DNA of 64,000 nt from Acidobacteriota bacterium. GTDB lineage: Bacteria; Acidobacteriota; Blastocatellia; Pyrinomonadales; Pyrinomonadaceae. This document shows positions 39,661 through 44,222 of the stretch, one piece after another. Position 1 is the stretch's first letter. Every line of letters starts with the position of its first letter. The position numbers and the translations under genes were made by a program. The stretch is from positions 992,001-1,056,000 of the forward strand of contig JAHBSI010000001.1 in the NCBI GenBank assembly GCA_019639195.1, read 5' to 3'. The notes below the pieces were generated by a model. It made no database searches, was not told where the DNA came from, and worked only from the letters and a program-made list of their open reading frames with translations.

Positions 39661-40833
39661 CTATTCCCCGACGGCTTTGCCGATCGCGACAACGTTCGAG
39701 CCGGAAGCGATGCGAATGGCTTCACGGAGGTCTTCGATCACGTCATCAACATTCTCGATGCCGACCGAGATGCGGATCAGATCACGCGGCGGCGCAAGTT
39801 CGCCGCGAAGTTCGGCGGGAATGCTCGCGTGCGACATATAGCACGGCAGGCTGATCGTGCTGTTTACCGACCCAAAACTTACAGCGATGGAGCAGAGTCT
39901 CGTTGCCTCGACAATGCGTCGGGAAAATTCCGCATCATCGGTCGTGAACGCGATCACGGAGCCGCCGCCCGATGCTTGGCTTTCGTGGATGCGGCGAGCC
40001 TTTTCATCAGCAAATGCCGGGTGATAGATGTTTGTGACGGCAGGATGCGAAGACAAGAACTCGGCGACCTTAAGGGCGTTCGAGCATTGCTTTTCGACGC
40101 GGAGGTCGAGCGTCTTGATGCCGCGAAGAAGCAGCCAGGAATCGAACGGTGCGAGTGCCGTCCCTTCTGCGTTCTGGACGAATGCGATCTCCTTTGCGAT
40201 GTTCGCGTCTTTTACGATTACGGCGCCGGCGGTGACGTCGCTGTGGCCGGAGAGGAATTTCGTGCCTGAGTGATAGACGATGTCTGCTCCGTGCGTGATC
40301 GGGTTTTGGAGGCAAGGCGACAGCATCGTGTTATCGACGACGAGCAGCACGCCGTTCGCATGCGAGATGTCTGCCAACACGCCGATGTCCGACACACGCT
40401 GGAACGGATTTGTCGGCGTTTCGATCAGCAGCATTCTCGTGCGGCTCGATAGAGCTTCGACCACATTCTGCGGATCGGTGGTATCGACGTAACGCACGTT
40501 GATGCCGAGCCGCGGAAGGCGTTCGAGCAGACGGATGCTGCCGCCGTAGAGGTTGCTTCCGGCTAGGATCTCGTCGCCCGTGGTCAGAAGTTTTACGATC
40601 GCCGAAAGTGCCGACATACCGCTTGAAAATGCGAATGCGTGCTCGGCTCGTTCCAATTCGGCGAGCTTTTTCTCAAGCTCGGTGCGGGTCGGATTCCCCG
40701 AGCGTGAATAGTCGTATTCGCCGAATTCGGTCGAGGTCGGCTGGCGAAACGTGGCGGTCTGGTAGATCGGTGTCGAGACGGCACCGTATCTTTCTTCTTC
40801 CGAAAGGCTTACGCAGCGTGTTGCGTTCTTCAT
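39661..40833 (-). CDS. cystathionine gamma-synthase/lyase-type PLP enzyme
   Basis: A 390-residue fold-type I PLP enzyme of the Cys/Met metabolism family. The PLP lysine is in YHSGTKFLSGHSDVTAG; SRSGNPTR, FSSGMSA and DNTMLSPCLQNP are the usual cofactor and substrate loops. The GHSDVTAG version is closer to MetB/MetC than to sulfhydrylases. It would make or split cystathionine on the way to homocysteine. The ATG overlaps the stop of the aspartokinase/homoserine dehydrogenase gene (ATGA), so it is the third gene of the riboswitch-led operon. Confidence 0.88.
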   Translation of the reverse strand: MKNATRCVSLSEEERYGAVSTPIYQTATFRQPTSTEFGEYDYSRSGNPTRTELEKKLAELERAEHAFAFSSGMSALSAIVKLLTTGDEILAGSNLYGGSIRLLERLPRLGINVRYVDTTDPQNVVEALSSRTRMLLIETPTNPFQRVSDIGVLADISHANGVLLVVDNTMLSPCLQNPITHGADIVYHSGTKFLSGHSDVTAGAVIVKDANIAKEIAFVQNAEGTALAPFDSWLLLRGIKTLDLRVEKQCSNALKVAEFLSSHPAVTNIYHPAFADEKARRIHESQASGGGSVIAFTTDDAEFSRRIVEATRLCSIAVSFGSVNSTISLPCYMSHASIPAELRGELAPPRDLIRISVGIENVDDVIEDLREAIRIASGSNVVAIGKAVGE

Positions 40834-42593
40834 ATCGTCGCTCCTTGTACCCGACAGTGCAGGCCAGGCTGAGTCGGTAGGTATTGATGACCGTTCTCAA
40901 GCGTCTCGTAGTAGATGTCGAAGATGTCGCCGAGCACGGCCTCAGCGGTCGCATATCGTCCCGCACCGCGTCCGCGAACCACGTGACGGTCGCCGTCCGC
41001 GGTCTCAAAAAGAACGAGATTCTCGGCGCCGTTGATCTGTGCGAGCGGGTCCGAGGCGTCGAGTGAAACGCACGAAACGCTCGCGGTCGCCTTGCCACCG
41101 TCTGCTCGAACTTCCGCGACAACACGGAACGATCTGCCGGCTTCACGGGCTGCAGCAGCATCCGCGCCGCTCGCTTCTTCGAGGCCGCGACGCGGAATAT
41201 CGTCGAAGGCGATGTCCGAACCGAATGCCGAGCGTGCAAGCAGCACGAGCTTTTGTGCGGCATCAGAACCGTCGATGTCGAGCGTCGGATCGGCCTCGGC
41301 AAAGCCGGCCTCCTGAGCTTCTTTTACCGAGGCGTGAAAGTCCTTGCCATCCTCAAGGCGTCCGCAAATGAAATTGGACGTGCCGTTTATGATGCCGCGG
41401 ATGACGGTCGGCTGTGAGGTTTTCGAGAGGCGCCGAGCGGTCTCAAGTGCCGGAACGACGCCGCCAACCGCTGCGCCATAGCGAAGCGAAACGTCGGCGG
41501 ATTCCGCAAGCTCGTGAAGCGACCTTCCATGTTCGGAGATCAACGCCTTGTTCGCCGAGACGACCGATCTGCCGTTTGCAAGCGAGTGGCGGATGAACTG
41601 ACCCGCTGCATTCTTGCCGCCGATGAGCTCGACGACGACATCGCAATCGCCTTCTATCAACTCGATCGCATCGTTTCCGATCAGCTCAGGTTCGATGCCG
41701 CGTTCGATCGCACGTTCGCGATGAAGATTAACGACGCCCGTGATCTCAAACTTTTGCGGCATCGCACGCAAGCGTTCATAGACGCCGAAACCGACAACTC
41801 CGCAGCCGAGAAGTGCGACCTTGAGCGGCCGCCGAAGTTCTTCGGAAAGATCGCTCGCAAATGCGTCTTCAAGGTCACCAACGTGAGTTGCGACGCCGGA
41901 ACCAAGTGAAGCGATCTCGAAATTGAGCCCGACCTTCTCGGCAAATTCGACGGCTTTGGGCTGGACTAGCTCACCGCCGCGTTCGAGCGTTGTGCTGTAA
42001 CTGACCGTCGAATATCGACGCGGACGAACGGCGGCGTCAGCAGGATTCGTTTCAAAAAGGCCATCGACATCTTTTACGAGCACGCAGCGGGCATTGAGCG
42101 CGTTCGCAAGATAGAGTGCGGTCAGGTCGGTCCCGCCGCGGCCAAGAAGCGTCGTGTCGCCGTCGGCGTTCACACCGACAAAGCCCGAGACGATAACGAT
42201 CGATCCATCAAGGGCCCGATCGACCGCATCGATGTTCGCACCCGTGATCTCGCCATCGAGCGGTGCGCCTTCGGTAAGGATACCGACCTGGTGCGGTGCG
42301 AGTATCTTCGAATTGATACCGGAACGCTTTAGGGCCGATGCAAGCAGGGCCGCGGACACGGCTTCGCCCGTTGCGAGCAAGGTCGCGACGGCGTGATCGT
42401 TGCCGTCCGGTCCGTATTTTTCAGTGCGAGCGAGAAGCTCGTCGGTCGTCCCTTCAAAAGCGGAAACGACGGCGAGAACGCGATAGCCTTGCCGCCAATG
42501 CCGATAGATCTCGTGCACGGCAAGCGGCAGGTCGGCTTCGCCGCGAAGCACTGAGCCGCCGAATTTCAATACGATCGTCGGTGATTTGGACAT
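40830..42593 (-). CDS. bifunctional aspartokinase / homoserine dehydrogenase lacking ACT domains
   Basis: A 587-residue fusion. Residues 1-240 are the kinase (KFGGSV at 10-15, GFVG, GRGGTDLTA, VDGLFETNP). Residues 257-585 are homoserine dehydrogenase (VALLGCGVVG, SANKALI, GIINGTSNFI, AEADPTLDIDGSDAAQK). Enteric ThrA is about 820 residues because two ACT domains sit between the halves; here only a linker of about 20 residues remains. It catalyses the first and third steps from aspartate toward homoserine. It is the middle gene of the operon, four bases after the first PLP enzyme gene. Confidence 0.93.
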   Translation of the reverse strand: MSKSPTIVLKFGGSVLRGEADLPLAVHEIYRHWRQGYRVLAVVSAFEGTTDELLARTEKYGPDGNDHAVATLLATGEAVSAALLASALKRSGINSKILAPHQVGILTEGAPLDGEITGANIDAVDRALDGSIVIVSGFVGVNADGDTTLLGRGGTDLTALYLANALNARCVLVKDVDGLFETNPADAAVRPRRYSTVSYSTTLERGGELVQPKAVEFAEKVGLNFEIASLGSGVATHVGDLEDAFASDLSEELRRPLKVALLGCGVVGFGVYERLRAMPQKFEITGVVNLHRERAIERGIEPELIGNDAIELIEGDCDVVVELIGGKNAAGQFIRHSLANGRSVVSANKALISEHGRSLHELAESADVSLRYGAAVGGVVPALETARRLSKTSQPTVIRGIINGTSNFICGRLEDGKDFHASVKEAQEAGFAEADPTLDIDGSDAAQKLVLLARSAFGSDIAFDDIPRRGLEEASGADAAAAREAGRSFRVVAEVRADGGKATASVSCVSLDASDPLAQINGAENLVLFETADGDRHVVRGRGAGRYATAEAVLGDIFDIYYETLENGHQYLPTQPGLHCRVQGATI

Positions 42594-42597
42594 AGAT

Positions 42598-43788
42598 TCA
42601 GGCTCCTTTTACGAGTTTTTGCGAGAGTGCGCGGTCGAGATCGGCGACGATATCTTCCGGATTCTCAAGGCCGACCGAAAGGCGTACGAGGCCGTCGGTG
42701 ATGCCCGCTTTTTGACGGGCTTCCGGTGCGACGGAACCGTGCGTCATCGACGCGGGATGAGTGATGAGTGTCTCGGCCGACCCGAGATTCTCGGCGAGCG
42801 AACACAGTTTGACGTTGTTCATCAGCGCGATGCCGGAATCGATGCCGCCGTGAAGCTCAAAAGAGAGAAGCGCACCGCCGCCGGATTGCTGGCGACGTGC
42901 GAGCTCGTATTGCGGGAAGTCCGGAAGGCCGGGATAGTTCAATCGCTTTACGCGCGGATGCCTGGACAGGAATGCAGCGACCGAAAGTGCGTTCTCCGAT
43001 TGCTGCCACACGCGAAGCGGCAGCGTCTTAGAGCCTTGCAGCGTGAGCCAGGCATCGAACGGCGCCTGTATCGAGCCGACCGTCTTTCGCGTGAACTTGA
43101 ACGCTTCATCGAGTGCGGCATCGTTCACGGCAAGTGCACCGCCGATCGTCGCATTGTGGCCGTCGAAGAATTTCGTTGTCGATTCGAGGACGATGTCGGC
43201 ACCGAGATCGATCGGGCGTTGGAGTGCGGGCGAAAGCAGCGTGTTATCGACGGCGAGCAACGCACCTTTTTCGTGTGCAAGGCGTGCGGCAAGTGCGATG
43301 TCCGTGAGCTTTAGCGTCGGGTTTGCCGGAGTTTCGATAAAGACGAGAGAAGCGGGCTTCTGAAGGCTCTCGGTCAGGGCCGCTTCGTCCGAAGTATCGA
43401 CAAAATCGGCCTCAACGCCGAATTTGCTGAGCGTGTTTTCAAGCAGACGGACCGTTCCGCCATAACAGACGTCGGAGACGACAACGCGGTCGCCTGCCTT
43501 CAGGAGCGTCAAGAAAAGGGCGTTCGTTGCGGCAAGTCCGGATGAAAAACAGGTCGCGTGTGCTGCCCCTTCGAGCGTTGCGATGCGGTCCTCAAGGGCC
43601 TTGACGGTCGGGTTGCCAGCTCGGCTGTATGTGTAGCCTTTGTCGCTTCCGACGGCATTTTGACGATATGTCGTCGTCTGGTATATCGGCGTCAGGATCG
43701 CGCCGGTCGTCGGATCGGGCTCGGTGCCGGAATGGAGCGCAGCGGTCTCGATCTGCGCGTCGGGTGCAACATAAGAATTCAATGGCAT
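42598..43788 (-). CDS. homocysteine-pathway PLP enzyme (MetZ/MetB type)
   Basis: A 396-residue Cys/Met-metabolism PLP enzyme from the ATG at 43788, preceded by AAAGGAG. The PLP lysine is in ESTTKFFDGHNATIGG; other loops are YSRAGNPTV, CFSSGLAATNA and DNTLLSPALQRP. The HNATIGG version suggests O-acyl-homoserine sulfhydrylase or cystathionine synthase activity; the choice cannot be made by eye. It is the first gene of the operon and is separated from a SAM-II riboswitch and terminator by about 110 bases. Confidence 0.88.
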   Translation of the reverse strand: MPLNSYVAPDAQIETAALHSGTEPDPTTGAILTPIYQTTTYRQNAVGSDKGYTYSRAGNPTVKALEDRIATLEGAAHATCFSSGLAATNALFLTLLKAGDRVVVSDVCYGGTVRLLENTLSKFGVEADFVDTSDEAALTESLQKPASLVFIETPANPTLKLTDIALAARLAHEKGALLAVDNTLLSPALQRPIDLGADIVLESTTKFFDGHNATIGGALAVNDAALDEAFKFTRKTVGSIQAPFDAWLTLQGSKTLPLRVWQQSENALSVAAFLSRHPRVKRLNYPGLPDFPQYELARRQQSGGGALLSFELHGGIDSGIALMNNVKLCSLAENLGSAETLITHPASMTHGSVAPEARQKAGITDGLVRLSVGLENPEDIVADLDRALSQKLVKGA

Positions 43789-43897: not shown

Positions 43898-43942
43898 AAA
43901 AAAGGATCCGACACCCTTCGAAGAGTGCCAAGGATCCTTTTT
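43898..43942 (-). terminator. attenuator-type rho-independent terminator in the methionine operon leader
   Basis: On the minus strand AAAAAGGATCC pairs with GGATCCTTTTTT, continuing inward through ggcactctt / aagggtgtc to a two-base loop. The stem is about 20 bp long with a T7 tail. It lies between the SAM-II aptamer and the start of the first gene, so it is placed to end transcription when SAM is bound. Confidence 0.92.
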
Positions 43943-43956
43943 CGGAAAATCTCAGG

Positions 43957-44010
43957 CAGCTCTTTAGCAGTTTTTATCGTGGAGCAAGTTGCCTTAAATC
44001 GCCACGCTTG
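43957..44010 (-). ncRNA. SAM-II (SAM-alpha) riboswitch
   Basis: Reading on the minus strand from 44010, the sequence has P1 CGUGG, loop CGAUUUAAGG, ACUUGC, the P1 partner CCACG, AUAAAAAC and the closing GCUAAAGAGC. The order GAUUU ... UUGC ... CACG ... AUAAA ... GCUAAA is the conserved skeleton of the SAM-II pseudoknot aptamer. It sits about 170 bases before a methionine-pathway gene, with a terminator 14 bases further on. It should sense S-adenosylmethionine and switch the operon off. Confidence 0.82.
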
Positions 44011-44146
44011 ATTTTTCAACGATGCCGAAAGACCTTCTCTCAAGCATCTCTATGGACAATACACGGGCCGATACTCGCCTGTCAAGCCGAAATATCTGAC
44101 TAAGTCACAGTGTTACAGGTTAGGGCAATGGCGGGAGGGGCTTTAA

Positions 44147-44222
44147 TGGAGCCACCCGTCGGATTTGAACCGACGACCTTTCGATTACGAATCGAATGCT
44201 CTACCAACTGAGCTAGGGTGGC
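44147..44222 (-). tRNA. tRNA-Thr (CGU anticodon)
   Basis: Read on the minus strand the 76 bases fold as a complete cloverleaf: acceptor GCCACCC / GGGTGGC, D arm GCTC-AGTTGGTA-GAGC, anticodon arm TTCGA-TTCGTAA-TCGAA with anticodon CGT, T arm GTCGG-TTCGAAT-CCGAC, and an encoded CCA end. Confidence 0.96.

Follow-up and report, generated by a model that had tools for sequence, protein, structure and literature searches.

A predicted short-linker SAM-II riboswitch with a downstream terminator ahead of an acidobacterial methionine operon

Sequence comparison and RNA folding pointed, with a probability of about 0.88, to a short-linker SAM-II riboswitch that would turn off a methionine operon by premature termination of transcription. 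The element lies on the minus strand of the window, that is, the whole 64,000-nucleotide stretch of DNA that was analyzed. In the proposed switch, when SAM is plentiful, the GCUAAA strand of the aptamer would be held in the pseudoknot, the terminator would fold and RNA polymerase would stop short of the genes. At low SAM, the strand AAGAGcUGCC would capture the emerging sequence GGCACUCUU, the terminator would be delayed or prevented, and the operon would be transcribed. The overall novelty is modest, and consists of the acidobacterial lineage, the short-linker subtype scoring below the Rfam threshold, and the covariation of the antiterminator.

Leader, operon and host

The leader is arranged on the minus strand in the order promoter-like site, aptamer, hairpin with six U's and start codon (43788), the latter preceded by AAGGAG. 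The promoter-like site (44056-44085) was located by a consensus scan and consists of TTGACA (44085-44080), an 18-nt spacer and TATTGT (44061-44056), with 10 of 12 consensus matches against 0.2 expected in shuffles; several orthologous leaders also carry TTGACA or GACA upstream. As had been predicted from the sequence, the SAM-II skeleton was present in full, with CGUGG, GAUUU, UUGC, CCACG, AUAAA and GCUAAA in this order. The P1 stem (43978-44006) pairs CGUGG (44006-44002) with CCACG (43982-43978), identically in both Rfam alignments, and the AUAAA block (43977-43973) follows directly after CCACG. The inner P2 pseudoknot, which makes up the SAM pocket (43963-43987; PMC3764141), joins UUGC (43987-43984) and GCUAAA (43968-43963), both of them invariant in an alignment of 27 sequences. 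The outer P2 (43958-43993) pairs GGC (43993-43991) with GCU (43960-43958). Across 119 distinct elements gathered by structural pattern, in which the P2 pairs were counted by script, its pairs 1, 2 and 3 were formed in 107, 113 and 92 elements, respectively, and shifted registers scored lower. Compensatory exchanges were found at pairs 1 and 3 (C-G/U-A and G-U/G-C/U-A).

Downstream of the aptamer, a minimum free energy (MFE) fold, a terminator scan and the related elements all indicated an intrinsic terminator hairpin (43898-43943, minus strand). The stem of about 20 bp claimed in the original prediction was recovered (20 bp in the MFE fold), but the tail has six U's (43903-43898) and not seven T's, and the hairpin begins 19 nt after GCUAAA instead of 14. 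Folded as a whole, the leader gave an MFE structure with the terminator and an alternative upstream pairing, and with neither P1 nor the pseudoknot, pseudoknots being outside the model of that fold. A tRNA gene (44150-44222, minus strand; Rfam 73.2 bits) is located just upstream of the leader in the same orientation. The terminator is unlikely to be part of this tRNA gene, because the promoter-like site intervenes and the complementarity of the hairpin follows the aptamer.

The three genes downstream, all on the minus strand, correspond to methionine biosynthesis, a location that is a membership feature of SAM-II aptamers. The first (42598-43788, 396 aa) encodes a MetB-like member of the cystathionine gamma-synthase/Met-Cys PLP enzyme family, with NF005871 as its best NCBIfam match, below the equivalog cut-off. 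The second (40830-42593, 587 aa) encodes a short aspartokinase fused to a homoserine dehydrogenase; the homoserine dehydrogenase model NF004976 was matched above its cut-off and the N-terminal 230 aa matched aspartate kinase models in NCBIfam. The third (39661-40833, 390 aa) is MetC-like, resembling cystathionine beta-lyase (TIGR01329, 486.7 bits, cut-off 487.5). Hence, the expected methionine operon with an aspartokinase/homoserine dehydrogenase was confirmed, but the aptamer is not directly ahead of that gene, since the fusion comes second and the cystathionine gamma-synthase-type PLP enzyme first.

The best matches of the fusion protein were encoded in metagenome-assembled genomes named Pyrinomonadaceae or Acidobacteria (82-84% identity), which places the host in the family Pyrinomonadaceae of the Acidobacteriota, also in agreement with the acidobacterium of the original prediction. 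The aptamer recurs in the orthologous leaders, again together with a terminator. When the orthologous operon of seven other genomes was compared, the aptamer was 90-100% identical to that of the window, while the identity of the flanks was 24-31% further upstream, 20-68% in the promoter region and 25-61% past the terminator.

Complementarity between the aptamer strand and the terminator

In the window, sequence and folding predicted an intrinsic terminator ahead of the first gene, together with an antiterminator that is drawn from the aptamer sequence and cannot form at the same time as the terminator. The 5' strand of the antiterminator, AAGAGcUGCC (43955-43964, minus strand), overlaps GCUAAA and the 3' strand of the outer P2, and was indicated by duplex energy and by folding of the growing transcript. 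Its partner, GGCACUCUU (43921-43929, minus strand), lies within the 5' arm and loop of the terminator, and equivalents of it were found in most of the related elements. The duplex of AAGAGcUGCC with the terminator arm reached -12.0 kcal/mol. The complementarity of the window element by itself was modest, as 4 of 100 shuffled hairpins equaled it; the case for aptamer-terminator complementarity is one made by the element set and not by the window alone.

A terminator-like hairpin was detected in 118 of the 119 elements under a permissive rule, by which the U-rich tail had to start within 130 nt. When GCUAAA plus 10 nt was paired with the hairpin of the same element, the mean energy was -15.1 kcal/mol, compared with -10.1 kcal/mol for dinucleotide-shuffled hairpins, -9.0 kcal/mol for the reverse complement and -12.2 kcal/mol for hairpins swapped between loci. 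The observed mean was matched by none of 2000 permutations, and the effect stayed in thinned sets of 70, 27 and 12 dissimilar elements, with 0 of 10,000 permutations for each set. Furthermore, 47 elements have G at position 7 of the strand, opposite C or U in 44 cases, and 69 have C there, opposite G in 62. Facing pairs in the set included GCUAAACAGC with GUUGUUUAGC, GCUAAGGAA with UUCCUUAGC, and CAGCAgAGAG with CUCUgUGCUG, the pair of the window being AAGAGcUGCC with GGCACUCUU. The proposed SAM-controlled attenuation is thus supported by covariation across 118 elements.

It was also considered that the aptamer could be real and the terminator constitutive, or unrelated to the switch, with SAM acting mainly on translation or RNA stability. 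Such an arrangement has a parallel in the SAM-II element of Sinorhizobium (S.) meliloti metA, which is followed by a terminator but yielded no predicted SAM-driven antiterminator (PMC9373788), and in L095 and L096, both of a different acidobacterial family, the terminator lacks the complementarity. Nevertheless, a constitutive terminator would not account for the locus-by-locus covariation of the two strands, and the start codon at 43788 lies about 170 nt past the aptamer, so that direct hiding of the ribosome-binding site by the aptamer is impossible. This explanation was consequently regarded as improbable.

The stability of the window terminator, far greater than that of the antiterminator at full length, also speaks for a constitutive hairpin. 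If the SAM-controlled termination is correct, the energetic advantage of the terminator in the full-length leader means that control in the window must be kinetic. The growing transcript was folded with the SAM-bound state imposed as a constraint and with pseudoknot energies and rates left aside. In the SAM-free window leader the antiterminator was dominant up to the point at which the final ~10 nt of the hairpin emerged, and the terminator formed earlier when the aptamer strand was made unavailable, mimicking the SAM-bound state. In another element (L105), the antiterminator was still present at full length.

The ligand pocket and the Rfam scores

From 44006 to 43958, the minus strand reads as a SAM-II aptamer in which all the published SAM-pocket nucleotides are present. 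The L1 core GAUUU (43996-44000, minus strand) corresponds to G8, A9, U10, U11 and U12 in 2QWY numbering and provides the third strand of the pocket, in which the role of U10, U11 and U12 has been described (PMC3764141). In the inner P2, U20, U21, G22 and C23 are matched with G42, C43, U44, A45, A46 and A47. The pocket set listed in PMC3764141 (G8, U10-U12, U20, U21, G22, C23, G42, C43, U44 and A45-A47) is therefore complete between 44000 and 43963. The pattern GATTT-N(4-16)-TTGC-N(11-30)-GCTAAA occurred once in the 64 kb, against 0.04 occurrences expected by chance.

That the short-linker subtype senses a related ligand other than SAM, such as S-adenosylhomocysteine (SAH), was judged very improbable. 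Close variants of other aptamers have switched ligand (for example PMC10853860), and the linker lengths are unlike those of SAM_alpha. However, U11, U21 and U44, which recognize the sulfonium and the adenine (PMC3764141), are intact in the window together with the rest of the pocket, and the genes downstream serve methionine supply.

The Rfam check that accompanied the original prediction fails if taken literally, since RF00521 (SAM_alpha) gave 21.2 bits at the window element against a gathering cut-off of 36. RF01726 (SAM-II long loops) was also below its threshold (21.7 bits, cut-off 44). A gathering cut-off is a detection threshold and not a structural feature, and the low scores are attributed to the short linkers: aligned to RF00521, the element is shortened by deletions in the loop that leads to UUGC, in the stretch from UUGC to P1 and in the linker preceding GCUAAA. 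Other riboswitch models, including SAM-V, SAM/SAH and other SAM classes, gave no match at the element up to E = 10. When the whole window was compared with Rfam at gathering thresholds, the tRNA (44222-44150) was the only hit, and SAM-II was absent.

A chance or decayed look-alike that has lost ligand binding, as the sub-threshold scores and shortened linkers might suggest, has a negligible probability given an aptamer 90-100% conserved amid diverged flanks, the retention of every pocket nucleotide and the 51 elements in which UUGC and GCUAAA are likewise spaced by 15 nt. On the basis of this conservation, of two paralogues in the same genome (one of them above the RF00521 cut-off) and of a covariance model of close orthologues, the window element is very probably a genuine SAM-II riboswitch and a predicted SAM sensor.

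Related elements and known systems

The same genome contains two more SAM-II elements, scoring 42.4 and 34.4 bits. They precede a bifunctional homocysteine S-methyltransferase/MTHFR gene (HMT-MTHFR) and metH, and each has its own terminator. Of 99 genomes sampled from the family, 90 gave an RF00521 match above the cut-off, compared with 31 of 347 across the phylum. The short-linker subtype was modeled alone, because in a joint MAFFT alignment of both subtypes the different linker lengths shifted the P1 3' strands by two columns against each other. This covariance model matched 96 of the 99 family genomes, many of the matches being of the long-linker type at lower score, and 29 of 247 genomes of the phylum, 26 of them of the same class. 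Since the standard Rfam cut-off misses the short-linker subtype, annotation would leave the methionine operons of this group with no regulator assigned. Most of the family genomes have an element above the cut-off, so automated annotation probably marks those and misses the window's own.

Two subtypes were distinguished. Short-linker elements have GAUUU and in most cases (37 of 55) precede metB-like genes; long-linker elements have GAGUU and precede metH (27 of 54) or HMT-MTHFR (26 of 54). The spacing from UUGC to GCUAAA is 15 nt in the window versus 18 nt in most long-linker paralogues. GAGUU represents a change of U10 to G, and was found in L001 (1507-1577, minus strand), L002 (1500-1569, plus strand) and 54 other elements before metH and HMT-MTHFR, with a search pattern that admitted U or G alone at position 10. 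U10 had been described as completely conserved in SAM-II (PMC3764141). As a tentative and rather doubtful idea, the GAUUU and GAGUU subtypes of Blastocatellia might differ in ligand affinity or specificity, each branch of methionine synthesis then responding to its own level of SAM or SAH, with the ligand-binding strand as antiterminator in both.

The original prediction regarded an attenuation-type SAM-II in this phylum as worth describing. The lineage appears to be new: no description of SAM-II in Acidobacteria was found in the open-licence literature searched, and Acidobacteria are not mentioned in the text of PMC9481103, so that the element extends SAM-II to a lineage undiscussed in that literature. 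The mechanism class is already known, since terminators downstream of SAM-II were noted at its discovery (Corbino 2005; PMC1273637), most SAM-II riboswitches have been termed transcriptional (PMC6061858), the S. meliloti metZ element was predicted to be an OFF switch acting by termination (PMC9373788) and tandem SAM-II elements with terminators have been catalogued (PMC9481103). Structural work so far has centered on the translational metX example (PMC6061858). With the set of 118 elements, a covariation-backed antiterminator formed from the ligand-binding strand would make it possible to test directly, by mutation, how transcriptional SAM-II riboswitches switch.

With SAM_alpha (RF00521; PMC1273637) the window element shares P1, the GAUUU L1, the UUGC/GCUAAA core, the outer P2, the methionine genes and a terminator between aptamer and gene. 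It differs in having short linkers, with a single nucleotide separating UUGC from the P1 3' strand, a short GGC outer P2, a score below the cut-off and an acidobacterial host. The core is also common to the SAM-II long loops of RF01726, whereas the window linkers are short and the score is lower than the 44-bit cut-off. As for the rhizobial SAM-II elements with terminators (S. meliloti metZ and the plasmid examples L160-L163), the OFF switch by termination proposed for metZ is the common feature, and in the Shinella example the P2 3' strand AGGCCGG faces CCGGCCU of the terminator. In the four rhizobial plasmid examples the complementarity falls mainly after GCUAAA, whereas in most Blastocatellia elements it reaches the SAM-contacting GCUAAA, the rhizobial sample being too small for a firm difference.

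The window element is single, unlike the tandem arrangements of PMC9481103. Tandem SAM-II/terminator units, ~120-145 nt apart, were present among its relatives (L099, L100, L101, L102, L153 and L159). The next gene in L099, L100 and L102 encodes threonine synthase, which is not a usual target of SAM-dependent switches. Tandem SAM-II-like elements were also observed in other acidobacterial families (L152 and L157), where the first copy has a terminator and the second seemingly lacks one; this second copy precedes metK in L152 and adjoins AGGAGG in L157. Additionally, SAM-II elements were located before genes of NirA-family nitrite/sulfite reductases (L103 and L117) and near a homoserine O-acetyltransferase gene (L104), targets that broaden the apparent SAM-II regulon.
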